NCBI GenBank assembly: GCA_017626095.1
Contig: JAGAJL010000012.1
Location: 186,001 to 250,000, forward strand
DNA: 64,000 nt
Direction of reading: 5' to 3'
From: Lachnospiraceae bacterium
Lineage (GTDB): Bacteria > Bacillota > Clostridia > Lachnospirales > Lachnospiraceae
Under the pieces are notes generated by a model. The model had not been told where the DNA came from, searched no databases, and was given only the letters and a program-made list of their open reading frames with translations. The translations under genes were made by a program, and so were the position numbers. Shown here piece by piece: positions 4,224 to 61,977 of the stretch. Position 1 is the stretch's first letter. The number at the start of each line of letters is the position of its first letter.

Positions 4224-4982
4224 ATGGAATATACAAAACTGTTATTTGAGTTTTATAATGAAAAAGGAATTTTCATGCTTTTATATGCAATTGGTTGGAT
4301 TTTGATTGTATTGCTGGAAAAAGATAGGAATCATAAGACTGTAATGGCATTTTCAGCGTGGTATCTTCCTTTGGTAATATTAAATCCTTTGGTGGGAAGT
4401 GTATTTGCATATTTTGATATCATGCCAAACCGAATGGTGCGAATCTATTGGCTGTTACCGGTAGTCTGGGTGATTGCATACGGTCTTACCAAGCTGGTTA
4501 TAAAAGTGTCTGGTGCCGGGAAATGGCTGGGAATGGCAGCTTTTTTGGCCTTAGTCATCGAACTGATCGTAGTTGGAAAGCCTCTGGTGACGGAAGAAAA
4601 TTTTGTGAGGGCTCAAAATAAATTTAAGCTTCCTAATGAGGTGATTGAAGTCGTGGATAAAATCAATGCGGATTATGATGCGGGATTATCTGACAGCCGC
4701 AAGGTGGTTTTGCCGGAAGAATTGGCGGCATATGCAAGAGTATATGATGGAACGTTGCCATTATTGTATGGAAGACTGCCGGATACGGATGAATCCGGGC
4801 GTGTATTTATTTATATGAGTTATGACACACTGGATATGGAGGAAATAGCGGATGGTGCGCGGAATTTAGGCTGTGGTTATCTGGTTTTAGATAGTGAAAA
4901 ACCATGTGAAAATGCACCCAAAGAGGCCGTTGTGACGAAATTCGCAGAGGTCGGAAAGTATTGTCTGTACCGGTTGGATTAA
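4224..4982 (+). pseudogene. DUF6077-like membrane protein, C-terminal fragment of a split gene
   Basis: A 252-residue reading frame with three or four hydrophobic helices (about residues 14-30, 40-70 and 75-115) followed by a soluble domain of about 130 residues. It continues the membrane protein encoded just upstream, in the frame reached after a -1 shift near 4176 and past a TAA at 4209. ATG 4224 has only a weak GAAAGA site, so independent translation is doubtful. The soluble tail (LPEELAAYARVYDG, GCGYLVLDSEK) is the kind of extracytoplasmic domain found at the end of such membrane proteins. Its last 25 bases, including the stop, are tandemly duplicated. Confidence 0.65.
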
Positions 4983-5005
4983 GTATTGTCTGTATCGGCT
5001 GGATT
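4956..5005 (+). repeat. 25-bp tandem duplication of a gene 3' end
   Basis: The segment 4956-4980 (aagtattgtctgta...) is repeated at 4981-5005 with two mismatches. It covers the last codons of the split membrane gene, so the second copy is a non-coding echo of the coding end. Confidence 0.85.
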
Positions 5006-5008
5006 AAC

Positions 5009-5037
5009 TTGAATTAGAATTATGAAGATGTTATAAT
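5009..5037 (+). promoter_or_regulatory. Sigma-A type promoter for the ABC exporter operon
   Basis: TTGAAT at 5009-5014 and TATAAT at 5032-5037 with a 17-base spacer. Expected transcription start is near 5044, leaving a leader of about 85 bases before the permease ATG at 5129. Confidence 0.7.
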
Positions 5038-5046
5038 AGCGCTATT
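5035..5046. promoter_or_regulatory. 12-bp palindrome overlapping the -10 box and +1, possible operator
   Basis: AATAGCGCTATT is a perfect palindrome that begins inside the -10 hexamer and reaches the expected transcription start. Its position fits a repressor site, but no regulator gene is visible in the window. Confidence 0.35.
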
Positions 5047-5055
5047 ATTTTGTGG

Positions 5056-5103
5056 TTGAAAATTTGTAGTTGATAATTTGCAGTTGAAAATTTGAGGTTG
5101 AAT
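5056..5103 (+). repeat. 14-bp tandem repeat in the exporter leader
   Basis: Units ttgaaaatttgtag, ttgataatttgcag and ttgaaaatttgagg at 5056, 5070 and 5084, plus a partial fourth unit at 5098. They fill most of the untranslated leader between promoter and ribosome binding site. Confidence 0.8.
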
Positions 5104-5128
5104 AAATAAAAGACAGAGGAGAATATCC

Positions 5129-5932
5129 ATGGTAAAAGATGCATGGAATAATCGAAAATTAATCATTAAATTGGCAAAAAATGATTTTAAGACCAGATAT
5201 GCCGGTTCTTATTTGGGAATTGTGTGGGCTTTTGTACAGCCAATTATTACAATTGTTGTCTATTGGTTTGTATTTGAATATGGATTGAGTGCAGGAGCAC
5301 AGTTGACCAGAAGCGGAATTAAAATTCCTTTTGTTCTCTGGCTTTCTGCCGGTCTGATTCCCTGGTTCTTTTTTTCTGAAGCTTTAAGCAGTGCGACAAA
5401 TGCCTTGATTGAATACAATTATCTGGTAAAAAAAGTCGTATTTAAAATCGAAGTTCTGCCGATTGTCAAGGTGATCTCATCCTTGTTTGTGCATGCATTT
5501 TTTGTCGCTTTTATTTTGGTTTTATATGCATGCTACGGTCATTTTCCGGATTTATATACATTACAGGTTGTGTACTATTCATTTTGCATGGTTGCATTGG
5601 TTTTGGCAATCAGTTATACAACTTGTGCTGTCGTTGTTTTTTTCAGGGATCTTTCTCATATTATCGGAATCTTTCTACAGGTCGGCGTATGGGCTACTCC
5701 GATTATGTGGAATTTTAATATCATCAGCAATCCGGTTTTACAGTTCATTTTTAAATTAAATCCCATGTTTTATATTGTGCAGGGCTATAGAGAGGCTTTG
5801 ATTGAAAAGGCCTGGGTATGGGAATGTGCAATGGGACAGACGGTGTATTTCTGGGTTTTGACATTCGTGTTGTTTTTTATCGGAAAAGCAATGTTTAAAA
5901 AATTGAAACCCCATTTTGCAGATGTTTTGTAA
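5129..5932 (+). CDS. wzm: ABC-2 type polysaccharide export permease
   Basis: A 267-residue membrane protein of the ABC-2 family with six predicted helices. The N-terminal KNDFKTRYAGSYLG precedes helix 1 and is characteristic of Wzm/TagG/RfbA permeases. The next gene encodes its ATPase and starts 11 bases after this stop, so the two form an exporter that moves a completed undecaprenyl-linked polysaccharide across the membrane. A GAGGAGA ribosome binding site sits at 5116-5122. In Gram-positives TagG plays this role for wall teichoic acid; the large carbohydrate-binding tail of the partner ATPase argues for a capped polysaccharide instead. Confidence 0.92.
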   Translation: MVKDAWNNRKLIIKLAKNDFKTRYAGSYLGIVWAFVQPIITIVVYWFVFEYGLSAGAQLTRSGIKIPFVLWLSAGLIPWFFFSEALSSATNALIEYNYLVKKVVFKIEVLPIVKVISSLFVHAFFVAFILVLYACYGHFPDLYTLQVVYYSFCMVALVLAISYTTCAVVVFFRDLSHIIGIFLQVGVWATPIMWNFNIISNPVLQFIFKLNPMFYIVQGYREALIEKAWVWECAMGQTVYFWVLTFVLFFIGKAMFKKLKPHFADVL

Positions 5933-5942
5933 GGAGTTTATG

Positions 5943-7238
5943 ATGGAAGATATTGCAATTAAAGTAGATCATATTACCAAAGTATACAGGTTATATAATA
6001 AACCGTCGGATCGCCTGCGGGAGTCTTTGTCCGTTACACATAAGAAATATTCAAAAGATCATTATGCCTTGTCGGATATTTCTTTTGAGGTAAAAAGAGG
6101 GGAAACGGTTGGATTGATTGGGACGAATGGCGCCGGCAAATCCACTATTTTAAAAATTATAACCGGTGTTACGAATCCAACAGAAGGAAAGCTTGAAATA
6201 GATGGAAGAATATCTGCTTTGTTGGAACTGGGTGCCGGTTTTAATATGGAATATACCGGAGTAGAAAATGTATATCTGAACGGAACAATGAATGGTTTTT
6301 CTGAGGAAGAGATTGATGCCAGGCTACCCGAGATTTTAGAATTTGCTGATATTGGAGAGTTTGCATATCAGCCGGTCAAGACATATTCATCAGGTATGTT
6401 CGTGCGGCTGGCTTTTGCTGTGGCAATCAATATTGATCCCGAAATTTTGATCGTGGATGAGGCCTTATCGGTTGGAGATGTTTTCTTTCAGTCTAAGTGT
6501 TATCACAAATTTGAAGAATTCAAAAAGATGGGCAAGACAATTCTCTTTGTATCGCATGATTTAAGCAGTGTTGCCAAGTATTGTGACAGGGTTGTTCTGC
6601 TAAACAAAGGAACAAAGCTTGCCGAAGGTAATCCACGTGAAATGGTGGATTTATACAAACGGCTTTTGGTGAATCAGATAGAGGATAGCAATGCAGAAGG
6701 CAAAAAGGATATCAAGGTTAATAGCGAAGTGGTATCTGCAGAAATGACATGGATGAGCCGGATGAAATTGAATCCCGATGTGCAGGAATATGGTGAAAAT
6801 ATAGCCAGAATAACGGATTTTGCCATTCTGGATGAAAACGGGAATATCACGAATATCGTAGAAAAAGGTAAGAAATGTTCGTTTAAAATAAAGATGGATG
6901 TATTTGAAGAGGTTGAGGAGCCGATTTTGGCTGTTACAATCAAAAATCTTCATGGCACAGATATTACCGGTACAAATACCAGTTTTGAAGGCGAAAGCAT
7001 GGGGCTTTTAAGGCCGGGAGACTGTCGTATCGCAACGTTTACCCAGGATGTAAATCTTCAGGGCGGCGAGTATCTGATTTCTCTTGGATGTACAGGCTTT
7101 ATTAAGGGCGAATTTCATGTTTTTCACCGATTATACGATATCTGTAATTTAACAGTACTTTCCAACAGAGATACGGTTGGATTTTTTGATATGAATGCAT
7201 CGTTGCAATTGGAAAACCCGAATGGAGAATCCGAATGA
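5943..7238 (+). CDS. wzt: Polysaccharide ABC exporter ATPase with C-terminal carbohydrate-binding domain
   Basis: 431 residues. Walker A GTNGAGKST at 60-68, signature YSSGM at 148-152, Walker B ILIVDEAL at about 168-175 and the H-loop SHD near 204. Residues of about 285-425 form a second beta-rich domain of the Wzt_C type (Pfam family that binds the non-reducing end of the exported glycan in E. coli O8/O9a). This predicts that export depends on recognition of a terminal cap, and the next gene could make that cap. The start at 5943 (MED) is preferred over ATG 5940 because it puts AAGGAG (5931-5936) at a 6-base spacing. The stop overlaps the next ATG (ATGA). Confidence 0.93.
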   Translation: MEDIAIKVDHITKVYRLYNKPSDRLRESLSVTHKKYSKDHYALSDISFEVKRGETVGLIGTNGAGKSTILKIITGVTNPTEGKLEIDGRISALLELGAGFNMEYTGVENVYLNGTMNGFSEEEIDARLPEILEFADIGEFAYQPVKTYSSGMFVRLAFAVAINIDPEILIVDEALSVGDVFFQSKCYHKFEEFKKMGKTILFVSHDLSSVAKYCDRVVLLNKGTKLAEGNPREMVDLYKRLLVNQIEDSNAEGKKDIKVNSEVVSAEMTWMSRMKLNPDVQEYGENIARITDFAILDENGNITNIVEKGKKCSFKIKMDVFEEVEEPILAVTIKNLHGTDITGTNTSFEGESMGLLRPGDCRIATFTQDVNLQGGEYLISLGCTGFIKGEFHVFHRLYDICNLTVLSNRDTVGFFDMNASLQLENPNGESE

Positions 7239-13660: not shown

Positions 13661-14221
13661 ATGGGAAAAATAAAAGTAGAAACATGTGATATTGAGGGAT
13701 TAAAAGTTATAACTCCAACTGTATTCGGTGATGAGAGAGGTTATTTTATGGAGACCTACAATTATAATGATTTTGCCGAAGCAGGGATTGATGTGAAGTT
13801 TGTACAGGATAATCAGTCCGCGTCCAAAAAAGGAGTTTTGAGAGGCCTTCATTTTCAAATCAATTATCCGCAGGACAAACTGGTTAGAGTGGTTAATGGT
13901 GAAGTGTTTGATGTGGCGGTTGACTTAAGGGAAGATTCTGCGACTTTTGGAAAATGGTTTGGGGTTAGATTATCTGCTGAAAATAAAAAACAGTTTTTCA
14001 TTCCCAAAAATTTTGCACATGGATTCATTGTTCTTTCAGATTATGCAGAGTTTGCATATAAGTGTACAGATTTTTATCATCCGAATGATGAAGGTGGACT
14101 TTTGTGGTCTGATCCTAAGATTGGCGTGGAATGGCCAATGCCGGAAGGTATGTGTATAGATGATTTAATTCTTTCTGAAAAAGATCAGAAATGGCCGGGA
14201 ATAGAAGAGTATAAAAAATGA
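13661..14221 (+). CDS. rmlC: dTDP-4-dehydrorhamnose 3,5-epimerase
   Basis: 186 residues, the usual RmlC size. Converts dTDP-4-keto-6-deoxyglucose to its L-lyxo epimer in dTDP-L-rhamnose synthesis. Family hallmarks: DERGYFMETYN, DNQSASKKGVLRGLHFQ with the catalytic His, then KLVRVVNGEVFDVAVDLR, and FIPKNFAHGF in the cupin barrel. ATG 13661 follows AAAGGAG at 13648-13654. Transcription most likely starts near 13560, so the gene has a leader of about 100 bases. The stop overlaps the next ATG. The four rml genes are spread over 12 kb instead of forming one rmlABCD block. Confidence 0.95.
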   Translation: MGKIKVETCDIEGLKVITPTVFGDERGYFMETYNYNDFAEAGIDVKFVQDNQSASKKGVLRGLHFQINYPQDKLVRVVNGEVFDVAVDLREDSATFGKWFGVRLSAENKKQFFIPKNFAHGFIVLSDYAEFAYKCTDFYHPNDEGGLLWSDPKIGVEWPMPEGMCIDDLILSEKDQKWPGIEEYKK

Positions 14222-15915
14222 AACAGTATTTAAAGAGTTTTATTAAACAATATAGAATATCACTTGTGATTTTGCTTTTTCCGATGGTCTCATATGGATT
14301 GCTGGGACCATTGGAAATCTTTTTTGGGAATGAAAAAGATTTTAATTTCTGGTACACGGATTTTTACGGTGTGCTTGTATTGATTTCCGTTGTGACTTGG
14401 ATTGTATTAGCGCTGTTGGTTGCTTTGTTGCCACAAAAGATTTTTCGATTTGTAAACAGTACGATACTTGCTGTTGCTTTGGCATCATATATTCAGAATA
14501 TGTTTATGAATATTAAATTGAGCGAAGCAGATGGAAGTCCAATGAAATGGGAAAGTTTGCAAACATTTTCTGTTATAAATCTGGCTATTTGGATTGCAAT
14601 TGTGATTGCTGTAGTGGTGGTTTTTGCGCTACTTTTAAAAAAATGGAATTTTCCGGCAATGGCTTTCGCCGGTTTTTTTAGTGCCATTCAGTTAGTTGCA
14701 GTGGTTACATTGTTAGTTTCTTCTATTGGAAAAGAGCCCGAGAGCAATTACGTGCAAATGTCGGGAAAAGACCAGTTTAAAGTTTCGGGTGGCGAGAATA
14801 TGATTGTATTTGTTTTGGACACGTTTGGTTCGGGACAATTAGAGCTTGCATTGGAACAATACCCGGATATGTTGGACGGAATGCAGGATTTTACATATTA
14901 CAATAATGCGGATTGTCATTATTATTGTACATTTCCGTCGATGACGAATATGCTTACCGGAATAAATTTTGATTTTCAGGTACCGCTGTCGCAGGTGTGG
15001 CTGGCAGATGCATGGAATTCGGAGCGTGCCAAGAGTTTTTATGAGACTCTGCATGAAGATGGGTATACTTGCAATCTCTATTCCGGAGAAACCGGATATG
15101 TATATGGAAATCTTATAAATCTTGAGGATAAATGGGATAACATTTGTCCGATGGATACCAAGGTGGAAACGAAGCAGTTGAGTAAATTAATGCTCAAGAT
15201 GTCCATTTATCGTTATGTGCCCTATGTTTTAAAACCGCATTTTGAGGTCCTGACTATGGAGTTTGATCCGGTGGTAACATATGTAGACGGTGTCAGAGTG
15301 ATAGATGATAATGCGTCTTTTTATGCAATGCTGAAACAGCAGCCGCTTTCTGTTGATGAAAACATGGATAATGCATTTATTGTACAACATCTATTTGGAA
15401 CTCATCTTCCTTATACGCTTGATGAAAATGCCATGATGGTAAAAGAAGCACAGGCTGAGCAGACAGCCAAAGGACTTATGGTAATTGTAAATGAATATCT
15501 TACGCAGTTGAAGAACCTGGGATTGTATGACGATGCAAATATTATTGTGACTGCGGATCATGGATCTTGGTATGGTAACGATACACAGCCAATCTTTTTT
15601 TTAAAGAAAAGTGGAGAATCACATGAACAGTTTCAAACGAATACAGCGCCAATCTCACTGGATGATTTTCAGGCTACGATTATGTCTTTAATCGGAGAGG
15701 ATTCCGCAGATTACGGTACATCTGTTTTTGAATGGCAACCGGGTCAAGAGAGAGAAAGAACGGTGTACATGCGTTTTACGGATGATGCTTATCCGGATGT
15801 ACAAGGATCGGCTTTTAATATTTATGGTGGATATACTTATACGACAGATAAAAAGGAGCTGAATGCCAAAGTAAATGGTGAGCCCGATGAGGTCAAAATG
15901 GCGACACCCTGGTGA
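14218..15915 (+). CDS. Membrane-anchored sulfatase-fold enzyme, likely phospho-group transferase
   Basis: 565 residues. Five hydrophobic helices in residues 14-175, then an extracytoplasmic alkaline-phosphatase/sulfatase-fold domain. Visible landmarks are MIVFVLDTFGSGQL (first metal Asp, about residue 200), YYCTFPSMTNMLTG with the probable Thr nucleophile, FGTHLPY and TADHGSWYG with the second metal site. LtaS and GacH, which move glycerol phosphate from phosphatidylglycerol to glycans, share this plan, although GacH has more helices. Here it could place glycerol phosphate or another phospho-group on exported polysaccharide. The start overlaps the rmlC stop (ATGA). The next gene follows after 15 bases and encodes a TagF-like polymerase, which supports a phospho-decoration role. 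Confidence 0.85.
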   Translation: MKQYLKSFIKQYRISLVILLFPMVSYGLLGPLEIFFGNEKDFNFWYTDFYGVLVLISVVTWIVLALLVALLPQKIFRFVNSTILAVALASYIQNMFMNIKLSEADGSPMKWESLQTFSVINLAIWIAIVIAVVVVFALLLKKWNFPAMAFAGFFSAIQLVAVVTLLVSSIGKEPESNYVQMSGKDQFKVSGGENMIVFVLDTFGSGQLELALEQYPDMLDGMQDFTYYNNADCHYYCTFPSMTNMLTGINFDFQVPLSQVWLADAWNSERAKSFYETLHEDGYTCNLYSGETGYVYGNLINLEDKWDNICPMDTKVETKQLSKLMLKMSIYRYVPYVLKPHFEVLTMEFDPVVTYVDGVRVIDDNASFYAMLKQQPLSVDENMDNAFIVQHLFGTHLPYTLDENAMMVKEAQAEQTAKGLMVIVNEYLTQLKNLGLYDDANIIVTADHGSWYGNDTQPIFFLKKSGESHEQFQTNTAPISLDDFQATIMSLIGEDSADYGTSVFEWQPGQERERTVYMRFTDDAYPDVQGSAFNIYGGYTYTTDKKELNAKVNGEPDEVKMATPW

Positions 15916-15930
15916 TTTGGAGGAAATAAA

Positions 15931-17853
15931 ATGAGTGTTTTAATTGGTGCATTAGAATGGATTATGAATGGCTGTTATGCCATATGTCACAATTATGGAT
16001 GGGCAATCGTTTTATTTACTTTTTTAAGTAAGATTGTCCTGATACCGGTATCGGTATGGGTACAAAAAAATTCCATTAAAATGGTTAAAATGCAGCCGGA
16101 AATTAATTTTTTAAAGGCTAAGTATTATGGAGACAAGGATACCATAGCCGAGGAAGAACATAAAATTTATAAAAGAGAAAAGTATAATGCTTTAGCATCT
16201 TTAATTCCTCTTGCAATTCAGATTGTGCTTCTGATGGGATTGATTGAAGTCATAAAAGCAGGAATGTCCAATCCGGATATTTCCATGAATTTTTATGGTA
16301 TAGATTTGAGCAGAGTGCCCAGTAAGGAAGGACTTAGATTATTGTATTCACCTTTGATTGCCGGTGTTTCTGCGTGGCTTTTGTGTGTTGCGCAGAATGC
16401 TTCTAATGTTTTACAGTCTGAACAATCCAATGCCAATAAATATGGGACAATGTTGTTGTCGGTGGGACTGTCTTTGTATTTAGGATGGTTTGTATCCGTT
16501 GGTGTGGCACTTTACTGGGTGGCAAGCAATCTGTTTGCCATTGTACAGCTTTATATTTTGAACTGGCTGATTAATCCGAAAAACTATGTTGATTATGAGC
16601 AGTTGGAAAAGAGTAAGAAGGCCCTGGCTGAAATAGAAGGAATTGGACAGAAGAAACGGAAGTTGTTTGGTGATGAGGAAACGCGGCGGGAAAAGGCGGA
16701 TTACAAGAAATTTTTCTCAGTCGTAAATAAACATATTGTCTTTTATTCAGAAAGCAGCGGTTTTTATAAATATTTTAAGGGAACAATTGAATATTTGTTG
16801 GTGAATACGAATCTGGTTATTCATTATATTACAGGAGATCCAAATGATGTAATCTTTGAACTGGCAAAAGAACAGAATCGAATTCGTCCATATTATATCG
16901 GAGAAAAACGTCTGATTACTTTGATGATGAAAATGGATGCGGATGTTGTGGTAATGACTATGCCGGATTTGGAGAATTATCATATCAAGCGCAGTTATGT
17001 GCGCAAGGATATAGAATATATTTATATTCCGCATGGCATGGATAGTTTAAATCTGACGATGCGTACCGGTTCTATGGATCATTTTGATACGGTATTCTGT
17101 GTGGGCAGACATCAAAAGGAAGAAATACAAAAAACAGAACAGGCATATGGATTACCACAAAAAAAGCTGGTTGAGTGGGGATACTCTTTGCTGGATGAAA
17201 TGCGTGAGGAGTATGAGAAATCGACCTTGTCGGACAACGGTAAAGCCGATGGCAATAAAAAGGCTAAAATTCTGATTGCCCCTTCTTGGCAAGAAGATAA
17301 TATTGTGGATACCTGCTTAGATGAGATATTGGATAATCTTAGGGGAAAAGATTACCGGATTACGGTAAGACCGCATCCGCAGCATGTTCGACATAGAAAA
17401 GAGAGGATGGAACAGTTAAAGCATAAATATGAAAATGATGCTGATATTGAGATACAGACTGATTTTTCTTCCAATCAGACAGTATTTGAGGCGGATTTGA
17501 TGATTACCGACTGGTCAGGAATTGCTTATGAATATGCCTATACAACGCAAAAGCCTGTATTGTTTATTGATACCCCTATGAAAGTTATGAATCCGGAATA
17601 TCAAAAGATTGATGTAGTGCCCTTGAATATTTTATTGAGAAATGAAATTGGAAGTTCGCTTAATCCGGATAATCTTAACGAGATTGAAGAATGTGTTCAG
17701 ATGCTTTTAAAACAAAAAGATGATTACCATGACAAAATTGGTGCATTTATTGAAGAATATGTGTATAATCTTGGATGTAGTGCACAGGTTGGTGGAAAAT
17801 ACATTGTTAAGTCGCTTCAGGAAAAAGTGCGCGCAAGAAAGGGAGAAAAATAA
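15931..17853 (+). CDS. YidC/Oxa1 domain fused to CDP-glycerol glycerophosphotransferase (TagF-like)
   Basis: 640 residues. Residues 1-225 match the YidC/Oxa1 core: NYGWAIVLFTFLSKIVLIPV, then MQPEINFLKAKYYGDKD, a charged hairpin, and four or five helices ending in GVALYWVASNLFAIVQ. The groove Arg of insertases is Lys34 here. A charged linker (225-265) leads to a GT-B teichoic-acid polymerase domain with YIPHGMD, RPHPQ (about 480) and TDWSGIAYEYAY (about 526), the CDP-glycerol:polyglycerophosphate transferase motifs. The fusion suggests a membrane-embedded platform that binds or flips a lipid or polymer made by the attached transferase, rather than general protein insertion. GGAGG precedes ATG 15931. 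The donor and acceptor are unknown. Confidence 0.88.
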   Translation: MSVLIGALEWIMNGCYAICHNYGWAIVLFTFLSKIVLIPVSVWVQKNSIKMVKMQPEINFLKAKYYGDKDTIAEEEHKIYKREKYNALASLIPLAIQIVLLMGLIEVIKAGMSNPDISMNFYGIDLSRVPSKEGLRLLYSPLIAGVSAWLLCVAQNASNVLQSEQSNANKYGTMLLSVGLSLYLGWFVSVGVALYWVASNLFAIVQLYILNWLINPKNYVDYEQLEKSKKALAEIEGIGQKKRKLFGDEETRREKADYKKFFSVVNKHIVFYSESSGFYKYFKGTIEYLLVNTNLVIHYITGDPNDVIFELAKEQNRIRPYYIGEKRLITLMMKMDADVVVMTMPDLENYHIKRSYVRKDIEYIYIPHGMDSLNLTMRTGSMDHFDTVFCVGRHQKEEIQKTEQAYGLPQKKLVEWGYSLLDEMREEYEKSTLSDNGKADGNKKAKILIAPSWQEDNIVDTCLDEILDNLRGKDYRITVRPHPQHVRHRKERMEQLKHKYENDADIEIQTDFSSNQTVFEADLMITDWSGIAYEYAYTTQKPVLFIDTPMKVMNPEYQKIDVVPLNILLRNEIGSSLNPDNLNEIEECVQMLLKQKDDYHDKIGAFIEEYVYNLGCSAQVGGKYIVKSLQEKVRARKGEK

Positions 17854-17854: not shown

Positions 17855-18133
17855 ATGAAAAAGAAAATCTTATCAGTAGTTGCATATGCTTATTTTGGCT
17901 TTTGTTTTATGTTGTTATTTGGAGTGAATGCGAAGGCTTATGTTGATCCTTCCGTAATCACTTATTTGATTCAGGCTGTTGCCGGAATTGCAATTGCTGT
18001 AGGTGCAGTAGTTGGAATTTATTGGAGAAAAGCCAAAAAGAAAATCAGTGATACCATCGGTGTGGATGAAAATCGCAACAAAGAAGTGGAATCAGATGAT
18101 ATCATTGTGAATGAAGTGGAAGAGAAGGAATAA
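17855..18133 (+). CDS. Small membrane protein with YxDP motif
   Basis: 92 residues, starting one base after the preceding stop, with a GGGAGAA site at 17840-17846. A signal-peptide-like N-terminus (residues 1-26, NAKA before the mature start), the short motif AYVDPS, one transmembrane helix (about 40-62, AGIAIAVGAVVGIYW), a Lys-rich stop (RKAKKK) and an acidic tail. Short proteins opening with Y-[IV]-DP occur beside sulfatase-fold and polysaccharide genes in many Gram-positives. A partner or assembly factor for the YidC-TagF or sulfatase-fold protein is inferred. Its last 32 bases overlap the end of a convergent gene. Confidence 0.8.
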   Translation: MKKKILSVVAYAYFGFCFMLLFGVNAKAYVDPSVITYLIQAVAGIAIAVGAVVGIYWRKAKKKISDTIGVDENRNKEVESDDIIVNEVEEKE

Positions 18134-18656
18134 CTTTTCCGTATATGGAAGTGGATGAAATGCAGCCGATATAATCATATCGGCTGTCTTTGCTTTCAGA
18201 TAGATTATCACCCAGGACAAAGTAAGAAGTGTTATCAAGTTTAAGCTTATTTTCGGCGATGCCGGCATATGTAATGGAATCATATCTGACGGATTGCGTA
18301 TTTAATGCGTCATAGGAATAATAAGGTTTTTCATTAATGCAAAGAAGATTGTTGGTGATTTGAACGGTATCTCCCGGCATTCCAATGATCCGCTTGATTA
18401 GAATTGAGTCGGTAGAAGCTGAATAAAAACAAATGACATCACCGCGCTCGTAGGAGCGGTTTAATTTGTTTATCATGACAAGCTGCATGGAATGATATGT
18501 AGGTTCCATGCTTCTTCCGTCAATAAGTACAAATTGAAGAACATGCCGTGAAAACAGATAGGCTGCAATCAGCAAAAGTGAAAATAAGAGTGTTTTGGAA
18601 ATTATGGCAGCTCTTTTATTTAGTTTGGATATTATTTTTTTCATAGTATTTTTCAT
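18102..18656 (-). CDS. Signal peptidase I, S26 family
   Basis: 184 residues from the ATG at 18656. One N-terminal helix (20-36), then the S26 boxes: GRSMEPTY with nucleophile Ser49, SILIKRIIGMPGD with general base Lys88, and YFVLGDNLSESKDSRY. It cleaves signal peptides on the outer face of the membrane; being the only reverse-strand gene in the first 58 kb suggests a separate transcription unit, possibly for dedicated exported substrates. The promoter places +1 at this ATG, so the message may be leaderless; no ribosome binding site precedes it. An in-frame ATG four codons later is an alternative, as is a frame extension to 18728. The 3' end overlaps the small YxDP gene tail to tail. Confidence 0.9.
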   Translation of the reverse strand: MKNTMKKIISKLNKRAAIISKTLLFSLLLIAAYLFSRHVLQFVLIDGRSMEPTYHSMQLVMINKLNRSYERGDVICFYSASTDSILIKRIIGMPGDTVQITNNLLCINEKPYYSYDALNTQSVRYDSITYAGIAENKLKLDNTSYFVLGDNLSESKDSRYDYIGCISSTSIYGKVIPSLPLHSQ

Positions 18657-18663
18657 AGAGATA

Positions 18664-18692
18664 AGTATATCGACAAAAAACTTCTTTTGCAA
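18664..18692 (-). promoter_or_regulatory. Sigma-A promoter for the signal peptidase gene
   Basis: On the reverse strand TTGCAA (18692-18687), 17-base spacer, TATACT (18669-18664). The first base of the ATG at 18656 lies 8 bases past the -10 box, the normal distance to +1. Confidence 0.65.
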
Positions 18693-18812
18693 GATTTTGA
18701 ATTGTAGTATGATAAATATGATATGCATTGGAAAGATAAGTATTTTTCGGTATAGATATTGATTTTTACGTATGATAAAGTAAGAAATGATTGGACAAAG
18801 AGGAGAACATGT

Positions 18813-20621
18813 ATGCAGGCGATGATTTTGGCAGCAGGAATGGGCAAAAGATTGAAGGAGTTGACAAGGGGAAATACGAAATGCATGGTAGAAGTAAATG
18901 GCATTTCCCTGATTGAGAGGGCTTTGCGTATTCTCGATAAAAAGAATCTTTCAAGGATTGTCATAGTGGTTGGATACGAGGGACAGAAACTTATTGATTA
19001 TATTGCTACATTGGATATTAAAACGCCAATCCGATATGTTAATAATCCGATTTATGATAAAACCAATAATATTTATTCTCTTTCATTGGCTAAAGATTAT
19101 CTTTGTCAGGAAGATACACTGCTTTTGGAATCGGATTTGATTTTTGAAGAAAGCGTAATTGACGCACTGCTGGATGATGAGAGACCGGCTCTTGCGCTGG
19201 TTGATAAATTTGCCAGTTGGATGGATGGAACTTGTATGGAACTGGATGAGGATGATTGTATTGTTAATTTTATTCCCGGCAAGCATCTGGATTTTTCGGA
19301 AAAGGAAAATTACTATAAGACAGTTAATATTTATAAGCTGAGCAGCCATTTTTCTGCTAATACATATGTACCATTTTTGTGCGCATATGAAAAAGCAATG
19401 GGCGAAAATGAATATTATGAATCGGTTATTAAATTAATCGCTCTGTTGGAAACAAAAGAGTTTCGTGCAAAACGTCTCAATGGACAGGTGTGGTATGAAA
19501 TTGATAATATTCAGGATTTGAATATTGCTGAATCTTTATTTGCTTCAGATGAGGCGGAACATCTTGATAAAATCACTTCACGTTATGGCGGTTTTTGGCG
19601 TTATCCTAAATTGTTGGATTTCTGCTATCTGGTTAATCCGTATTATCCACCGGCCAAAATGATGGAAGAATTAAAATCCAATTTTGAGACACTTATTACA
19701 CAGTATCCTTCCGGAATGGCAGTGAATGCACTTTTGGCATCCAATAATTTTGGGGTTCGGACGGAACACATTGTCGTGGGTAATGGTGCGGCAGAGTTAA
19801 TCAAATGTCTGATGGAAAAGATAACAGGAAATGTTGGATTTATTAGTCCTACTTTTGAAGAATATCCGAACAGGTGTTGTGAAGAGAAGCGAATCATCTA
19901 TAAACCTCACAAGGAATTATACAGATATGATGCAAATGATTTAATTAAGTTTTTTGAAAATAAAGATATTGAATCTTTGGTTTTAATTAATCCGGATAAT
20001 CCCAGCGGAAATTACATTGAAAGAGATGATTTATTTTTATTAATTGACTGGGCGAAAGAAAAAGGAATTAAACTTATTATCGATGAAAGTTTTGTGGATT
20101 TCTGTGATAAGGGATTACCGGAAGAGCTGACGTTATTAAAAGAAGATGTTTTGAAACGTTATCAAGGTCTGTATGTTGTAAAGAGCATTTCCAAATCCTA
20201 TGGTGTCCCCGGAATTCGTTTGGGAATTCTTGCGAGTGCAGATGAAGAGCTGATAAAAGAGACAAAGAAAGATGTATCAATCTGGAATATTAATTCATTT
20301 GGTGAATTTTATACGCAGATTATGGAAAAATACAATAAAGATTACACAAAGTCTCTGCGTAAGTTGAAGGAAGCCAGAAAAGAGCTTGCTAAGGGGCTGG
20401 AAGATATCTCTTATTTGCATCCGTATCCTTCACAGGCAAATTACATCATGTGTGAGGTGGTTGGAAGACAAGCCCGCGATATTTGCTGCGCACTTTTAAA
20501 GCAGGATATATTAATAAAAGATTTAACTAAAAAACTGAACGATGGAAAACAGTATATCCGAATTGCTGTGCGCACCAAAGAAGAAAATGCAAAAATATTG
20601 GAATGTTTGAGAAATGTGTAA
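18813..20621 (+). CDS. Nucleotidyltransferase fused to PLP-dependent aminotransferase/decarboxylase-fold enzyme
   Basis: 602 residues. Residues 1-235 are a LicC-like sugar or alcohol-phosphate nucleotidyltransferase (ILAAGMGKRLKELT, metal Asp in LLLESDLIF). Residues of about 255-600 are a fold-type I PLP enzyme of the HisC/CobD type: VVGNGAAELI, NPDNPSGNYI, and SISKSYGVPGIRLG with the PLP Lys461. Known relatives of this layout include PntC-type proteins that activate aminoethylphosphonate, and CobD-like enzymes that decarboxylate phosphoserine or phosphothreonine. It could make and activate a CDP-aminoalcohol such as CDP-ethanolamine for glycan decoration. No phosphonate gene is visible here. 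AGAGGAG at 18799-18805 sets the start. Confidence 0.85.
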   Translation: MQAMILAAGMGKRLKELTRGNTKCMVEVNGISLIERALRILDKKNLSRIVIVVGYEGQKLIDYIATLDIKTPIRYVNNPIYDKTNNIYSLSLAKDYLCQEDTLLLESDLIFEESVIDALLDDERPALALVDKFASWMDGTCMELDEDDCIVNFIPGKHLDFSEKENYYKTVNIYKLSSHFSANTYVPFLCAYEKAMGENEYYESVIKLIALLETKEFRAKRLNGQVWYEIDNIQDLNIAESLFASDEAEHLDKITSRYGGFWRYPKLLDFCYLVNPYYPPAKMMEELKSNFETLITQYPSGMAVNALLASNNFGVRTEHIVVGNGAAELIKCLMEKITGNVGFISPTFEEYPNRCCEEKRIIYKPHKELYRYDANDLIKFFENKDIESLVLINPDNPSGNYIERDDLFLLIDWAKEKGIKLIIDESFVDFCDKGLPEELTLLKEDVLKRYQGLYVVKSISKSYGVPGIRLGILASADEELIKETKKDVSIWNINSFGEFYTQIMEKYNKDYTKSLRKLKEARKELAKGLEDISYLHPYPSQANYIMCEVVGRQARDICCALLKQDILIKDLTKKLNDGKQYIRIAVRTKEENAKILECLRNV

Positions 20622-22725: not shown

Positions 22726-22768
22726 GTGATTTGTAGTTTGGGGTGTGAAAGTAGAGAGGAGTGTTTCT

Positions 22769-23818
22769 ATGCAAAAAAGAAATCCGTATGCCATTAGTTT
22801 TGGTAGGATTCCAACACAATATATTAATCGGAATGCTATCATTGACAGCGTGATAGATGCAATTGATAGCGATTATGTGGATGAGCAGGCTTTTAAATTA
22901 ACTGGAATCCGTGGAACCGGAAAAACAGTAACATTGAGTGCTATTGAAAAGAAATTGAAAAATGATGACAATTGGATTGTGATTGGAATTCGTTCGAGCG
23001 CGGATATTCTCACTGAGTTGTTGTCAGAATTATATAGTTCGGTTCCTTTTTTGACTTCTTATATTGACGCGCAACTAAATTTGTCTGCTTTTGGCATAGG
23101 TCTCAATATTTTTAAAAAAAGCCCCACAACGAGTTGTGCATATGCATTAAAACAGATTTTGGGCGAAGTAAAAAGAAAAGGAAAAAAAGTATTAATTACT
23201 ATCGATGAGGCAAGAAAAACAGAAGCGATGGTAGATTTTGTTCAGGAATTTCAGATATTGATTCGTGAAGAGTTGCCGATATATCTGGTTGTTGCAGGGT
23301 TATATGAGGATATTGAAGCCATTGAAAATACAGATGGATTAACTTTTTTCTTAAGAGCAACAAAGTACGAAATGACACCATTGAATCACACAACGATACG
23401 AGAAGATTATCAGAAAACGATAGGTGTTGATTTTGAACAGGCTGATAAAATGGCTGCTTTGACGAAAGGATATGCATTTGCCTATCAGGCTCTGGGAAAA
23501 TATGTTTGGGATGATGATAAACACAGCTTATCAAACGAGGTGTTAAGACAATTTGACGATGCTTTGGCAGAAAAGGTGTATAACAAAATTTGGAGTGAAC
23601 TTGCACCAAAGGATCAATGGTTTTTGAAATTTATAGCTGAAAGGGATCAAATGTCTGCAAGCGAGCTGCTGGAAATGACGAAAAAGAAACACAATGAATG
23701 GTCGGAGCCACGAAAAAGATTGCGCGAAAAGGGCATTATTGATACCTCTGTCCGTGGAATGATTGTGTTAAAACTGCCTAGATTAAAACAATACATTGAA
23801 AATAGGCAGTATATGTAA
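22769..23818 (+). CDS. AAA/STAND-type ATPase, single gene
   Basis: 349 residues. Walker A GIRGTGKT at 46-53, Walker B VLITIDEA at 141-148, an Arg-containing sensor region (FFLRATKYEMTPL near 210) and a C-terminal winged-helix-like part (SASELLEMTKKK...RKRLREKGIIDTS). This matches the archaeal-type ATPase/Orc-like group often found as stand-alone genes of unknown role. It carries no glycan motif and has its own repeats and possible promoter, so it looks like an insertion between the rml genes. AGAGAGGA at 22753-22760 precedes ATG 22769. Roles in defence or as a regulator are possible but unsupported here. Confidence 0.85.
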   Translation: MQKRNPYAISFGRIPTQYINRNAIIDSVIDAIDSDYVDEQAFKLTGIRGTGKTVTLSAIEKKLKNDDNWIVIGIRSSADILTELLSELYSSVPFLTSYIDAQLNLSAFGIGLNIFKKSPTTSCAYALKQILGEVKRKGKKVLITIDEARKTEAMVDFVQEFQILIREELPIYLVVAGLYEDIEAIENTDGLTFFLRATKYEMTPLNHTTIREDYQKTIGVDFEQADKMAALTKGYAFAYQALGKYVWDDDKHSLSNEVLRQFDDALAEKVYNKIWSELAPKDQWFLKFIAERDQMSASELLEMTKKKHNEWSEPRKRLREKGIIDTSVRGMIVLKLPRLKQYIENRQYM

Positions 23819-35570: not shown

Positions 35571-36686
35571 ATGAAATACGATTATTTAGTAGTTGGCGCC
35601 GGTCTTTATGGGGCTGTGTTTGCACATGAGGCAAAACAAAAAGGAAAAAGTGTATTGGTTATTGATAAGCGTCCGCATATTGCAGGAAATGTTTATTCCA
35701 AACAAGTAGAGGGAATCCATGTTCATCAGTATGGAGCTCATATTTTCCATACCAATAACCGTAAAGTATGGCAGTATATTACAAAGTTTGCAGAGTTTAA
35801 CCGTTTTACGAATTCTCCGGTGGCTAACTACAAAGGAGAATTGTATTCCCTACCATTTAATATGTATACCTTTAATAAAATGTGGGGCGTTACAACGCCT
35901 GAAGAGGCAACACAAAAGATTGAAGAACAGCGCAGAGAAATAGTCGGTGAGCCCAAAAATCTGGAAGAGCAGGCAATATCGCTGGTTGGTCGTGATATTT
36001 ATGAGAAACTGATTAAAGGCTATACAGAAAAGCAATGGGGACGCGACTGCAAGGAACTGCCGGCATTTATAATCAAGCGGCTTCCGGTTCGGTTAACTTT
36101 TGATAACAATTATTTTAATGCACTATATCAGGGAATTCCGATTGGCGGATATACGAAGATGCTAGAACAAATGTTAGCAGGCATTGAGGTTCGCCTGAAT
36201 GAGGATTATCTGGGGAAAAAAGCCGAGTATGATGCCATGGCAGAAAGAATCGTTTATACCGGCGCTATTGATGCTTATTTTGACTACCGTCTGGGAAATC
36301 TGGAGTACCGTTCGGTCCGTTTTGAAAATGAAATACTGGATATTCCAAACTATCAGGGAAATGCCGCTGTCAATTACACGGACAGAGAAACTCCATGGAC
36401 CAGAATTATTGAGCATAAATGGTTTGAATTTGGAAAAGATGAGAATGGAAAAGATTTGCCAAAGACCGTCATCTCAAAAGAGTACAGCTCGGAATGGAAA
36501 CCGGGAGACGAGCCATATTATCCGGTGAATGATGAGAAAAACGGAGCTCTTTATCAAGCTTATAAAGAGTTAGCAAATCAAGAATCAAACGTGATTTTTG
36601 GTGGGCGCCTTGGTGAATACAAATATTATGATATGGATGCTGTAATCGCAGCTGCATTGGATATGTGTGAGAAAGAGCTTTCATGA
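35571..36686 (+). CDS. glf: UDP-galactopyranose mutase
   Basis: 371 residues, the standard bacterial Glf length. FAD enzyme converting UDP-galactopyranose to UDP-galactofuranose. Motifs: DYLVVGAGLYGAVFAHE (FAD), RPHIAGNVYS, HQYGAHIFHTNN, GYTEKQWG and GRLGEYKYYDMD. Indicates galactofuranose in the glycan. AAAGGGA at 35562-35568 sets ATG 35571; the frame is open further upstream but without family sequence. The stop overlaps the CotH gene (ATGA). Confidence 0.96.
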   Translation: MKYDYLVVGAGLYGAVFAHEAKQKGKSVLVIDKRPHIAGNVYSKQVEGIHVHQYGAHIFHTNNRKVWQYITKFAEFNRFTNSPVANYKGELYSLPFNMYTFNKMWGVTTPEEATQKIEEQRREIVGEPKNLEEQAISLVGRDIYEKLIKGYTEKQWGRDCKELPAFIIKRLPVRLTFDNNYFNALYQGIPIGGYTKMLEQMLAGIEVRLNEDYLGKKAEYDAMAERIVYTGAIDAYFDYRLGNLEYRSVRFENEILDIPNYQGNAAVNYTDRETPWTRIIEHKWFEFGKDENGKDLPKTVISKEYSSEWKPGDEPYYPVNDEKNGALYQAYKELANQESNVIFGGRLGEYKYYDMDAVIAAALDMCEKELS

Positions 36687-38350
36687 AAAAGAAAATCGTG
36701 TTGCTTGCTGCCATTGTTTTGTTTGTGATTTCCGTAGTGGTTTGCATTACTTTGGATGATGCAAAAGATATCGGAGTTCATGTGGCAGATGATAAAAAAA
36801 TAGAACAGATAAAGGCTAAATCTGAACTGTCAGATATGGCCTTTTTGTTGTGTTATGAAGGTGAAGAATTACCCTATGATGCTGCAAGTCATACTTTTTA
36901 TCTGCCCCTTGATATGGAAGATAGTGACTGGGAAGAAGGAAAGCTTTCGGGATATTTTGTCGTCAGCAATACTGAAAATAAAAGCAATAACAGTGATGGA
37001 AAAAAGATAAAATCAAAATTATTATTTACGCAGGACTATACGACTATAGATAAGCAATCAGCCATTGCTAACGGACAGTCTTTTTCTTTTTTAGCACTGG
37101 GAAAGGATGGATATGGAGAATATAAGCTGGTATTTACCGGTTTGCCAATGATAACTTTTCATGGAACTGAATACACAGCGGATGACGGAAGTCAGATGTT
37201 TTCCCTTACTGTTTATGATACGGACCACGATGGAGATTGGGTAACAACCTGCTATACCAAATCAAGACTTCGGGGAAACACCAGTCTGACTTATGAAAAA
37301 AAGAGTTTGCGGCTTTACTTAAAAGAGATAAAAGAGGATGGAACATTTGAAAAATGCAATAAAAATCTGCTTGGATTGCGTGATGATGACGATTGGATTT
37401 TAAATGCACTGTATGCGGATAATACCCGAATCCGTGACCAGCTTTGTGTAGATTTGTGGAATGAAGTTGGAGCAAAAGATCAGTTATATGGATATAATTA
37501 CGGAACCGCTTCTGCCATGGTTGAAGTATTTATCAATGATGGCTATCAGGGGATTTACGATCTGATGGCCCCGATTGATGCAAAGCAGTTGGGATTGAGA
37601 CCGGTGTCTGAGCAGTTGACTCAAAATACAGATGTCGTGGAAAGAATTTATAAAAAGAAGTACAGTCGGGAGTGGTTAAGTTCTGATTTTATAGGTGAAT
37701 TACCGGATCCTAATTCGCCGGATTATCGAGGCGGCTTTTATTTAAAGGGTGATACGATTTTACAAAATGAACAGGAATGGGAACCTTTATATCGGATAGC
37801 GGATGCTCTTGGTTCGGATGAGAAAACTTTTGCGTCTGAAATAACGCAATATAACGATCAACAGAATTTGATTGATAATTGGCTGTTTTATCAGGCAATT
37901 GCCGGTTTTGATAATGAAAATAAAAACTATTATTATGTGGTGCGCAACCGCGGCGGAAAAGAATACGGATATTTTATTCCGTGGGATATGAACATTTCTT
38001 TTGGTATGGTTTATGCCGATAACGTTTATTTTTCAGAAGAACTTGCATCCATTGTAACCGAACCGGTCACATGGCAGCCCGCACAACGGATGATTGAGTT
38101 AGATGTAGATAATTCCAAAGAACTGCTGCAGACCACATGGAATAAATGGCGGAAGGGCGTTTTTTCTGATGAGGCCATTACAGAACGTATACAGGAATTG
38201 GAACATAAAGTTAAGGATTCCGGAGCTTTTAAAAGAGAGGATGCCCGCTATCCCAACGGAAACCAGAAAGAGGATTTTTCCTATATTTATGATTTTGCCG
38301 TTAATAGACTGGCATATGTGGATGGATATGTAGAAGAATTGTGCCGCTGA
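36683..38350 (+). CDS. CotH-family extracytoplasmic kinase-like protein
   Basis: 555 residues. An N-terminal helix (5-22) anchors it outside; a beta-rich region (about 60-170) is followed by the CotH domain (about 185-520) with LRGNTSLTYEKKSLRL, LLGLRDDDDWILNA, RIRDQLCVDLWNE, VEVFINDGYQGIYDLM and PWDMNISFG. CotH of Bacillus is a spore-coat kinase; related proteins are surface invasins or of unknown role. Next to VTC and DUF4956 genes, it belongs to a recurring trio. It overlaps glf by 4 bases. Confidence 0.88.
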   Translation: MKKKIVLLAAIVLFVISVVVCITLDDAKDIGVHVADDKKIEQIKAKSELSDMAFLLCYEGEELPYDAASHTFYLPLDMEDSDWEEGKLSGYFVVSNTENKSNNSDGKKIKSKLLFTQDYTTIDKQSAIANGQSFSFLALGKDGYGEYKLVFTGLPMITFHGTEYTADDGSQMFSLTVYDTDHDGDWVTTCYTKSRLRGNTSLTYEKKSLRLYLKEIKEDGTFEKCNKNLLGLRDDDDWILNALYADNTRIRDQLCVDLWNEVGAKDQLYGYNYGTASAMVEVFINDGYQGIYDLMAPIDAKQLGLRPVSEQLTQNTDVVERIYKKKYSREWLSSDFIGELPDPNSPDYRGGFYLKGDTILQNEQEWEPLYRIADALGSDEKTFASEITQYNDQQNLIDNWLFYQAIAGFDNENKNYYYVVRNRGGKEYGYFIPWDMNISFGMVYADNVYFSEELASIVTEPVTWQPAQRMIELDVDNSKELLQTTWNKWRKGVFSDEAITERIQELEHKVKDSGAFKREDARYPNGNQKEDFSYIYDFAVNRLAYVDGYVEELCR

Positions 38351-46530: not shown

Positions 46531-47742
46531 ATGGCAACAGAAAGAAGTTCGAGAAATACAGGTTCTTCTAACAGAACGGGCAGAACCGGATCAACAAACA
46601 GAGGAGGTTCCGCTAACAGAAATGGCCGAAGACGCGTCAGTAAAGCGGAATTAAAAAGGCGCCAGCGGAAAAAATGGATTATTTTGGGTGTCGAATTTTT
46701 TGTAGTATTGGTTTTGATTGTTGCATTGTATTTTATTACCAAGCTCGATGTCATCCATAAAGATTATATTGATGAAAATGAAATTCAGACCAATGAAAAC
46801 GCGAATACAGAAGATATGCTGGAAGAATTTATGATTTCCGAAGAAGATGTCAAATTCAATGATTTTGGCGATGACATGAAAGGCTATCGTAATATTGCAT
46901 TATTTGGTGTGGATGCCCGAAATAACAATTTAGGTAAGGGTGTCAGATCCGATACCATTATTATTGCTTCGATCAATGAAGAGACCAAGGAAATCCGCTT
47001 GGCATCCATTTACCGTGATACTTATTTGAATTTGGGAAATGATACCTATAACAAGGCAAACTCTGCTTATGCATTTGGTGGTCCGAAACAGGCTATCAAT
47101 ATGTTGAATATGAACTTTGACTTAAATATTACAGATTATGTTACGGTAGGTTGGGGTGCTGTTGCCGATACGGTTGATGCGCTTGGCGGTATTGAGATTG
47201 ATGTAGATTCGGCAGAGATTACTCACTTAAACAATTATCAGGTAGAAACTTCACAGTCTTTGGGAAGAAAATATACCAAGCTAACTCAGACAGGTATGGT
47301 TAATTTGGATGGTATTCAGGCAGTTTCTTATTGCCGTATCCGTTATACAGCCGGTGATGACTATAAGCGTGCAGAAAGACAACGTGAGGTTATACAGGCT
47401 TTGGCTGATAAAGCGCAAGCCGTGGCTTTGAAAAATCCGGCAACCTTAAATGATATTGCCAATGATGTATTTCCTTCTACAGCTACCAGCTTGACATTAA
47501 ATGAGATTTTATCTCTTTTATCAGATATTGGATCTTATAAGATTGTGGATTCAACCGGTTTCCCGAATGAGCAGTATCGTGCAACAGGTGTTGTCGGGGG
47601 TAAGGGTGACTGCGTTATCCCGAGTGATTTAAGTACGAATGTTACATTGTTACATGAATTTTTGTTCGGCGATACGGGATATGTTCCTTCATCAGAAGCA
47701 CAGAATTACAGCGCGAAGATTCATTCTGATACAGGAAAGTAA
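46531..47742 (+). CDS. LytR-CpsA-Psr (LCP) glycopolymer ligase
   Basis: 403 residues. A Ser/Asn/Arg-rich cytoplasmic N-terminus (1-50), one helix (about 51-70) and an extracytoplasmic LCP domain (about 110-340) with FGVDAR, RSDTIII, SIYRDTYL, and the Arg cluster RIRYTAGDDYKRAERQR that binds pyrophosphate. LCP proteins move undecaprenyl-linked glycans to peptidoglycan, so the locus product is likely wall-linked. A purine-rich GGAAAGG lies rather far upstream (about 46506-46512). A strong terminator follows. Confidence 0.93.
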   Translation: MATERSSRNTGSSNRTGRTGSTNRGGSANRNGRRRVSKAELKRRQRKKWIILGVEFFVVLVLIVALYFITKLDVIHKDYIDENEIQTNENANTEDMLEEFMISEEDVKFNDFGDDMKGYRNIALFGVDARNNNLGKGVRSDTIIIASINEETKEIRLASIYRDTYLNLGNDTYNKANSAYAFGGPKQAINMLNMNFDLNITDYVTVGWGAVADTVDALGGIEIDVDSAEITHLNNYQVETSQSLGRKYTKLTQTGMVNLDGIQAVSYCRIRYTAGDDYKRAERQREVIQALADKAQAVALKNPATLNDIANDVFPSTATSLTLNEILSLLSDIGSYKIVDSTGFPNEQYRATGVVGGKGDCVIPSDLSTNVTLLHEFLFGDTGYVPSSEAQNYSAKIHSDTGK

Positions 47743-61800: not shown

Positions 61801-61977
61801 AGCCCCACCGGCCGTAATCAGCCAAAAGAGCGTCAGTTCCCCGGATTTATTCAGACCGGTCGCAGATACATGTTCAATGATGAAATCTGTAAATTGTGGT
61901 GTTGTACCTGAAAAAACAGGTAAAAGCTTTAGGCACAGAATTGCCGCAAGCAGGATAACAAGCAGTAATGCGAGCAT
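58861..61977 (-). CDS. Large multi-spanning membrane protein of unknown function
   Basis: 1038 residues from the ATG at 61977, preceded on its strand by GGAGGGA. Twelve or more hydrophobic helices fill the first 640 residues, with two cytoplasmic Lys-rich loops near 450 and 580. The last 390 residues are soluble and probably outside, with a Gln/Glu/Thr-rich low-complexity piece (about 990-1010). This plan resembles GT-C-like proteins of surface-glycan loci but no catalytic Asp motif was recognised. It runs opposite to the rest of the locus and is divergent from the next membrane gene. Confidence 0.8.
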   Translation of the reverse strand: MLALLLVILLAAILCLKLLPVFSGTTPQFTDFIIEHVSATGLNKSGELTLFWLITAGGAVLLCALLFLSPLITKRISTHIMRNSSIETAFQSTYMLSLCAIAIPFLVYLIIYQKFSFPLFFGLLIILFCFFTKKVPLYATLFTYVLTYYAVLSVLSIGCQFTTRFQFSSKKIYALSILIGTVLVVCSHIADRIRKDNLFSQRILLLLQCFLPGLFSVYLIDKYFYHKSIIRVPYATGYYLFFFTLATIFFIALLYHLFRFWKEKKEDIICAVTPMVLYTYHSFCAAPMYAQPDQHHHGEQMIPWNQIFGHGQTAYETYTPVSGLFPLVNGFIQHVLLDGTISDYAPAISITMVIFCILTMFLVYMHVGGSKALMFAVLFTLPCYNRQYMVLPLLLLLTLPKLIEKPLAWFFCYILGSFMAGLYYPLFGAAVLLAAFPLAIWQMVSLIKLKRKNHINKLPKAQSVAQIVMMKNPGQTKQSILYFTAYIILFVLIICSFPLLFRMLNHTLTYSSQTILADGIALSNQTAPENFLPYLAGHQTIRHYLYMALRFLLPAIAIWLLLYFICMMIRNHKKLQDNQISQNDKILQKKQMFFNCLFLLAGIITLVISYTYTLVRADTGKLLSRTGPILATIIGIYFPVHLLSKKDYLFKNSVVIGFCLSIPMLLYAQVSETKNPDLWVYPDGESQMVMDDGAKLFAYYTVPETFLKSEDTGLSKRYQELLGRGFMVADQIHYIEEYASVIEKCEKVSDDVSYMAFDGQGFFDYLGVKCYGTGYIPAARSLKAQQRIWNSNPDQLPVVFYIQPEYDYYIFRFMLDAGYVYCQNDNAFYPPDLYEKLLEAKLIIQSDDYRQSTSPTNFGLSAASFGVSYQSFLENHVLQEGVDIQTVKSIPKMSYDALYLEFDNQKLQALSHTLCENEPSNLLVSIEWSDTEGKKFEGSKVTCQYGNGKLLIPIGMNACWLLSDIDSFTINLYDSTMLNQQPEQEQDAQIAQVEQTEPTEQIKQPNNSLFSASFDQGVLNTSEEDLLHITLHTINLER

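Follow-up and report, generated by a model that had tools for sequence, protein, structure and literature searches.

A YidC/Oxa1-fold membrane domain joined to a TagF-type transferase in gut Clostridia: a candidate lipid head-group flippase for the decoration of surface glycans

A stretch of 64,000 nucleotides from a Lachnospiraceae bacterium (assembly GCA_017626095.1, contig JAGAJL010000012.1, positions 186,001 to 250,000 of the forward strand; hereafter the window) encodes a single chain in which a YidC/Oxa1 membrane domain is joined to a TagF-type transferase domain. The two genes that flank it, here called SULF and YxDP, belong to the same system, which is thus wider than the initial annotation, a reading of the letters alone, had recognised. 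From the folds, gene order, fusions, conservation and co-occurrence observed in sequences and models, we tentatively propose, with appreciably less than even confidence, that the YidC fold has been recruited, probably twice, as a flippase for lipid head groups. It would act within a relay, possibly on a single chain and with a processed YxDP, that brings aminoethylphosphonate (AEP)- or phosphoethanolamine-like groups to surface glycans. The features concerned are as follows.

15931..17853, + strand: YidC-TagF fusion, 640 amino acids (aa); codon of K34 at 16030-16032, of the conserved H368 at 17032-17034 and of H482 at 17374-17376
15931..16599, + strand: YidC/Oxa1-fold membrane domain, residues 1-223
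16720..17841, + strand: TagF/TarL-type GT-B domain, residues 264-637
14218..15915, + strand: SULF, 565 aa, predicted outside enzyme; five predicted membrane helices and an alkaline-phosphatase-superfamily domain (LtaS/EptA/YejM-like)
17855..18133, + strand: YxDP, membrane protein of 92 aa; its predicted signal peptide ends in Ala-Lys-Ala immediately ahead of Tyr-Val-Asp-Pro, and a single membrane segment and a basic region follow

The presence of both domains in one chain, as the initial annotation had claimed, is confirmed by Pfam and by an AlphaFold2 model with a predicted local distance difference test (pLDDT) score of 91. Residues 1-223 match YidC/Oxa1 above the thresholds of Pfam 60KD_IMP (112.9 bits against 35) and NCBIfam yidC_oxa1_cterm (105.8 bits against 84.3), and the modelled half shares the fold of solved YidC, while the NCBIfam YidC equivalog cut-off is not reached (best 68.5 bits against 365). 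The C-terminal half scores above the cut-off for Pfam Glyphos_transf (PF04464) and adopts the TagF fold, its nearest solved relatives being TagF, TarL and Cps3D, with which it shares the GT-B fold and conserved His/Asp/Ser/Glu positions. It stands in place of the C-terminal tail of YidC. H368 and H482, the presumed counterparts of the TagF catalytic pair, are present in all 64 aligned sequences. Within the membrane domain, residue 34, which presumably lines the YidC groove, is basic in 64/64, and Q97 (64/64), Y195 (64/64), W196 (63/64) and N200 (63/64) are likewise retained. The initial annotation had placed weight on Lys34 as a replacement of the groove Arg of insertases; with Lys in 51 and Arg in 13 of the 64 fusions the substitution is unremarkable, and it was rejected as a functional marker.

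How these parts have been re-fused is the best argument that the insertase-fold domain links an enzyme on the inside to one on the outside. Locus counts here and below refer to the best 80 of 312 stretches encoding fusion relatives, drawn from one-genome-per-species contigs and including short or truncated ones. SULF, YidC and TagF form one open frame in 6/80 loci, and such triple fusions make up 28 distinct 90% clusters (P0241-P0268) of 1,114-1,359 aa; 27 of these cover 92-100% of the query, and P0266 covers 52% but has all three Pfam domains. The three triple fusions included in a tree of YidC domains nest at three separate places, and four changes are required on a larger quick tree. A second arrangement, YidC-SULF, gives chains of roughly 870-1,040 aa and occurs in 8/392 genomes of the window's order (searches of these 392 are assumed, from equal counts and handles, to cover the same set). 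Its sulfatase part lies under the Pfam cut-off in the three proteins scanned, yet matches the SULF hidden Markov model (HMM). All eight of these genomes encode a separate YxDP-TagF, a TagF-type protein starting with a YIDPG segment, which adjoins the YidC-SULF gene in 7/8; an hhalign comparison of YxDP with the start of YxDP-TagF gave 68%, which is suggestive only. YxDP is fused to SULF in 2/80 loci (L141, L143). The usual topology of YidC is N-out and C-in. If this holds here, and if SULF has its five membrane helices, every one of these arrangements would place TagF inside and SULF outside. Re-fusion thereby makes the inside transferase, the insertase-fold domain and the outside enzyme parts of a single machine.

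The predicted outside enzyme is itself well modelled (pLDDT 89.9), with five membrane helices and an alkaline-phosphatase-type domain. Foldseek matches of the model include YejM, MCR-1, EptA and LtaS and also sulfatases, its globular part being matched by soluble sulfatases too, and the best PDB match of a profile search is LtaS (E 3.4e-7). D201, T238, H391, H396, D447 and H448 are invariant across 15 rows, and across 28 rows T238 reaches at least 90%; metal and nucleophile roles are assigned to these residues by analogy, not by superposition on LtaS. The window copy falls below the Pfam Sulfatase cut-off (20.6 bits against 25), which three relatives exceed (L036, 33.7; L123, 39.4; L143, 26.8). 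EptA/MCR phosphoethanolamine transferases and LtaS are built alike, from membrane helices and an alkaline-phosphatase-type domain, but are stand-alone enzymes that use ordinary phosphatidylethanolamine or phosphatidylglycerol, and SULF remains far under the LtaS equivalog cut-off (16.3 bits against 970). It lies beside the fusion in 50/80 loci, and a weakly sulfatase-like gene does so in seven more; the remaining 23/80 have no SULF-type gene nearby. Six genomes were searched further. The five taken from among these 23 loci all have SULF farther off, as a partial match only in that of L101, and the sixth, that of L151, whose locus holds only a c11 gene, gave no SULF match. At L108 (10387-15517) one YidC-TagF gene is followed by three SULF genes in tandem, and genome G425 has five SULF matches; such multiplication suggests one donor source feeding several acceptor-specific enzymes.

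An unlikely alternative, though one that deserves serious weight, is that the TagF domain puts a phospho group on a lipid-linked glycan inside the cell in the manner of TagB or LicD, that the YidC domain is a mere anchor or scaffold, and that SULF works independently with phosphatidylglycerol, like GacH and SccH. The nearest solved relatives of the TagF-type domain fit this account, as does the use of phosphatidylglycerol by SccH as its source of glycerol phosphate in the available text of PMC11754754, and the 23 loci that lack a SULF-type gene close by speak for it, though SULF was found farther off where tested. A plain anchor, however, need not keep the basic residue 34, Q97 or Y195/W196/N200, and both the YidC-SULF and the SULF-YidC-TagF fusions would be left unexplained.

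The second neighbour, YxDP, is recognised by its HMM in 76/80 loci and appears to carry a cleavable leader. In copies with a leader, Ala directly precedes the Tyr-Ile/Val/Leu-Asp motif in 63/63, and position -3 is Ala, Gly or Ser in 58/63, a -3/-1 pattern that sites of type I signal peptidases show. Among 12 leaderless copies, the motif is preceded by Gly in five, Ala in four and Leu in three. These copies, like the TagF-fused form, begin only a few residues ahead of the motif. Signal peptides were called by a hydropathy rule and a start-codon picker, which mis-started L136 and perhaps L102, and the leaderless lists were set by hand; the small-x-small cleavage rule is too broad, fitting most leaderless copies too, and the residue count was relied upon instead. 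From these sequences we infer that YxDP would work with its Tyr-Ile/Val-Asp-Pro terminus free on the outer side of the membrane. A signal-peptidase-like gene lies next to it.

18102..18728, - strand: LEPB, 208 aa, type I signal peptidase-like by its sequence motifs

LEPB, named for these motifs, has an HMM match near the fusion in 41/80 loci. At loci of at least 14 kb it accompanies 27/40 YxDP genes with a leader against 0/9 leaderless ones (Fisher 2.4e-4); a kinship-aware test of the same association found one to two of five pairs in the same direction and none opposite, too few to exclude shared ancestry.

The near-constant presence of YxDP, which in the window is encoded directly downstream, could also mean that the YidC domain is devoted to inserting or chaperoning its partners, chiefly YxDP. 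Small membrane proteins are typical YidC clients, and both fold and groove of the YidC domain are well conserved. We nevertheless regard this as rather improbable, since YidC is fused to enzymes and not to YxDP, and in the YidC-SULF genomes the YxDP-like segment sits on TagF; moreover, relatives have a canonical YidC, and the C-terminal tail has been swapped for TagF.

Linked genes point to the kind of head group that would be handled.

18813..20621, + strand: LicC/PntC-like cytidylyltransferase fused to a CobD-type pyridoxal phosphate enzyme, predicted maker of a cytidine diphosphate (CDP)-amino-alcohol (likely start 18813; analyses used 18804)

This protein, hereafter NTP-AT, contains Pfam NTP_transf_3 and Aminotran_1_2. 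Its first half matches PntC (6pd1) and LicC (1jyk) in the PDB, and its second half 6oux and CobD (1lc5), the nearest being CobD-type decarboxylases. The pair occurs in 23/80 loci, 18 full and five split or cut. Elsewhere the neighbours are those of AEP synthesis: one representative of each cluster was scored, and all exceed the curated cut-offs, with 409 bits for phosphoenolpyruvate (PEP) mutase (cut-off 320), 453 for phosphonopyruvate decarboxylase (cut-off 312) and 467 for AEP transaminase (cut-off 361). By our own cluster HMMs at least one of the three is found in 20/80 loci and PEP mutase in 13/80. A LicC/PntC-like nucleotidyltransferase accompanies these phosphonate clusters. NTP-AT and phosphonate genes never occur together (0/80; Fisher 4.4e-4), 37/80 loci having neither, and the protein tree requires no fewer than 12 switches of donor type. 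Across the window's order, PEP mutase is present in 15/32 genomes with either YidC fusion against 27/360 without (Fisher 3.6e-8, uncorrected for relatedness); the window genome has none. Fusions of LicC with a choline/ethanolamine kinase are seen in L103 and L118, and beside the swapped system in L173.

Relatedness tempers these associations. Independent pairs never contradict the mutual exclusivity of the two donor types, with a median sign-test p of 0.125, and such kinship controls weaken the plain Fisher P values. The case for phosphatidylethanolamine as an ordinary SULF donor everywhere is mixed. Psd, the phosphatidylserine decarboxylase, is present in 8/19 genomes with the module (hand-picked from the 32 with a YidC fusion, plus the same-genus genome G008) and absent in 11/19, including the window genome and G008, which is 100% complete, so that ordinary phosphatidylethanolamine made via Psd would be unavailable in those 11.

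The label of glycerophosphate polymerase given in the initial annotation finds no support in this setting. TagF and TarL use CDP-glycerol or CDP-ribitol as donors. Unlike them, the domain here is joined to YidC, and TagD, the CDP-glycerol synthase (TIGR01518), is over its cut-off in only 2/19 module genomes; it was not found in the window genome (86.6% complete), and the match in G008 stays at 58.6 bits against 165.4. The linked donor genes favour an aminoalkyl phosphonate or phosphate activated with cytidine monophosphate (CMP) over CDP-glycerol and glycerol phosphate, and a CDP-glycerol polymerase is disfavoured. The TagD result also speaks against the suggestion that a TagF-type polymerase feeds a YidC half that extrudes a phosphoglycan polymer. 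The TagF fold and the surrounding polysaccharide cluster are in keeping with that idea, but the linked donors carry aminoalkyl head groups, decorations rather than chain links, and the glycan has a presumed exporter of its own; we consider extrusion quite improbable.

5129..7238, + strand: ABC polysaccharide exporter pair (ABC2_membrane; ABC_tran with Wzt_C), presumed to export the glycan destined for decoration

The window's own contig, about 21-25 kb farther upstream (L043), also encodes a fusion of helix-turn-helix, LicC and choline kinase domains. There, at L043:10196-15392 (G000:C18), it is accompanied by a second TagF-type gene (391-aa open frame) and another LicC-like gene, which suggests a separate locus for CDP-choline or CDP-ethanolamine decoration.

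The YidC-TagF fusion is widespread, many gut Clostridia carrying it. A protein search returned 7,280 matches among 7,999 scored candidates, with both Pfam domains in all 120 matches listed, and a second search, started from a relative that shares 38% identity with the window protein, returned 1,260 among 7,996. Of the 80 loci, 73 are filed under Bacillota and 68 under Clostridia, and the fusion is found at E 1e-40 in 26/392 genomes of the window's order. A cultured carrier is Roseburia inulinivorans DSM 16841 (L149), where YidC-TagF is accompanied by members of the PEP mutase, phosphonopyruvate decarboxylase and AEP transaminase clusters. The fusion and the same module neighbours also appear on contigs titled Candidatus Saccharibacteria or Thermoflexaceae (L129, L135, L138, L139 and L132), perhaps through binning or label errors, and at L163 a second YidC-TagF gene (4772-6664) lies near the first on the opposite strand.

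In the window genome the fusion is the sole PF02096 match, which raises the thought that it is simply the general YidC of the cell, with a further domain gained by accident; with an assembly 86.6% complete, the missing separate YidC is read as an assembly gap. The near-identical G008 encodes a 431-aa canonical YidC alongside the fusion, as do G012, G030 and G058 of the same 61-genome set, and the fusion is conserved across families. We also compared 67 YidC domains in a tree: 30 canonical ones of those fetched, 21 from YidC-TagF (chosen by locus number, plus five divergent ones), three of the six triple fusions, 11 from YidC-SULF and two solo. The canonical domains form one group (97/93), those fused to TagF their own (100/100), and those fused to the sulfatase-fold enzyme a third (100/100). 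Given the canonical YidC of relatives and the separate clades, a general insertase role is disfavoured for the fusion, and we hold this explanation to be very improbable. The two solo domains belong to short paralogues on long branches, L035:9254-10219 (322 aa) and L037:9114-9776 (221 aa), with no TagF or SULF match within the fetched stretches.

We come close to, without reaching, even confidence in the following mechanism: YidC-TagF loads an aminoalkyl phosphate or phosphonate onto a lipid of the inner face, the YidC groove passes the lipid across, and SULF decorates the exported wall polysaccharide. The neighbouring transferase-decarboxylase would make a CDP-amino-alcohol, probably ethanolamine-like, and at other loci the AEP pathway would supply CMP-AEP. 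The TagF domain might then move the head group onto a membrane lipid such as diacylglycerol, which the YidC domain would carry across as a scramblase or flippase, not as a protein insertase. SULF could take up the head group by way of a threonine intermediate, to hand it to a rhamnose-type glycan exported by the ABC transporter. Cleavage of YxDP, exposing an N-terminal Tyr-Ile/Val-Asp-Pro at the outer face, may complete the machine. Which lipid accepts the head group and which way transport would run is guesswork, and the proposed flippase step is the bold part. The available text of PMC10491306 describes scrambling of lipids by E. coli YidC in liposomes in vitro, and the YidC fold should therefore be capable of lipid crossing; SULF would decorate an exported glycan by analogy with SccH and GacH. 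Of the reuse of the YidC fold as a handling platform, which the initial annotation had suggested, the lipid part fits the comparative evidence, indirectly, through the YidC-SULF fusions and the canonical YidC of relatives, and the polymer part is disfavoured.

Several known systems share parts of this logic. SccH and GacH, according to the available text of PMC11754754 and PMC12282279, move glycerol phosphate from phosphatidylglycerol onto streptococcal rhamnose polysaccharide. Both settings thus combine a rhamnose-type cluster with an enzyme that transfers a lipid phospho head group to a glycan, but theirs relies on an ordinary phosphatidylglycerol donor, with no YidC or TagF partner named there, whereas here an inside transferase and an insertase-fold domain are fused or linked to it. 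The Pnt and Lic pathways resemble the donor side: CMP-activation of AEP is described in the available part of PMC6697681, and the genes next to the module, for PEP mutase and for LicC/PntC-like cytidylyltransferases, follow the same CMP-AEP or CDP-choline logic. That paper, however, names LicD-like transferases, and its main text, as available, is without YidC, insertase, glycerophosph- or sulfatase. Three-component transmembrane glycosylation, with its undecaprenyl phosphate-sugar synthase, flippase and GT-C enzyme (PMC11754754, available text), likewise consists of inside loading, crossing and outside transfer; here a head group takes the place of the sugar, an insertase fold stands where a known flippase would, and a single chain can hold all the parts. 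YidC/Oxa1 insertases share the fold and the basic groove residue, but here TagF replaces the tail, and in relatives the domain is a second copy beside canonical YidC. Targeted searches of open-licence PMC papers found no description of the fusion or the module. The fusion belongs to a larger module, itself part of a wall polysaccharide cluster.

If the proposal is correct, a highly conserved membrane-protein fold has gained a second job, as the first Oxa1-superfamily machine for lipid and glycan chemistry instead of protein insertion. It would show a route by which head groups activated with CMP in the cytosol get to the exterior of Gram-positive gut bacteria, and would supply missing late steps of bacterial phosphonoglycan tailoring. 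The module would then offer candidates for the phosphonyl tailoring steps called enigmatic in the available part of PMC6697681 and for the flippase or scramblase whose kind is left as a question mark in that of PMC11754754. The single-chain triple fusions make the proposal directly testable with one purified protein.

The module is embedded in a polysaccharide cluster with dTDP-rhamnose genes, read by eye, and a presumed ligase.

46531..47742, + strand: LytR-CpsA-Psr protein, presumed ligase of polysaccharide to the wall

Within the rhamnose gene run, 22745-23818 encodes an ATPase-like protein (by eye) that is 94.1% conserved in G008, where the three neighbours compared on each side reach 96.7-99.6%, and a CotH-kinase family protein is encoded at 36683-38350. 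Two open reading frames, 58861-61977 (1,038 aa) and 62244-63851 (535 aa), have no Pfam match at E 1e-5; the latter is similar to genes that lie shortly before the start of the window (L044).
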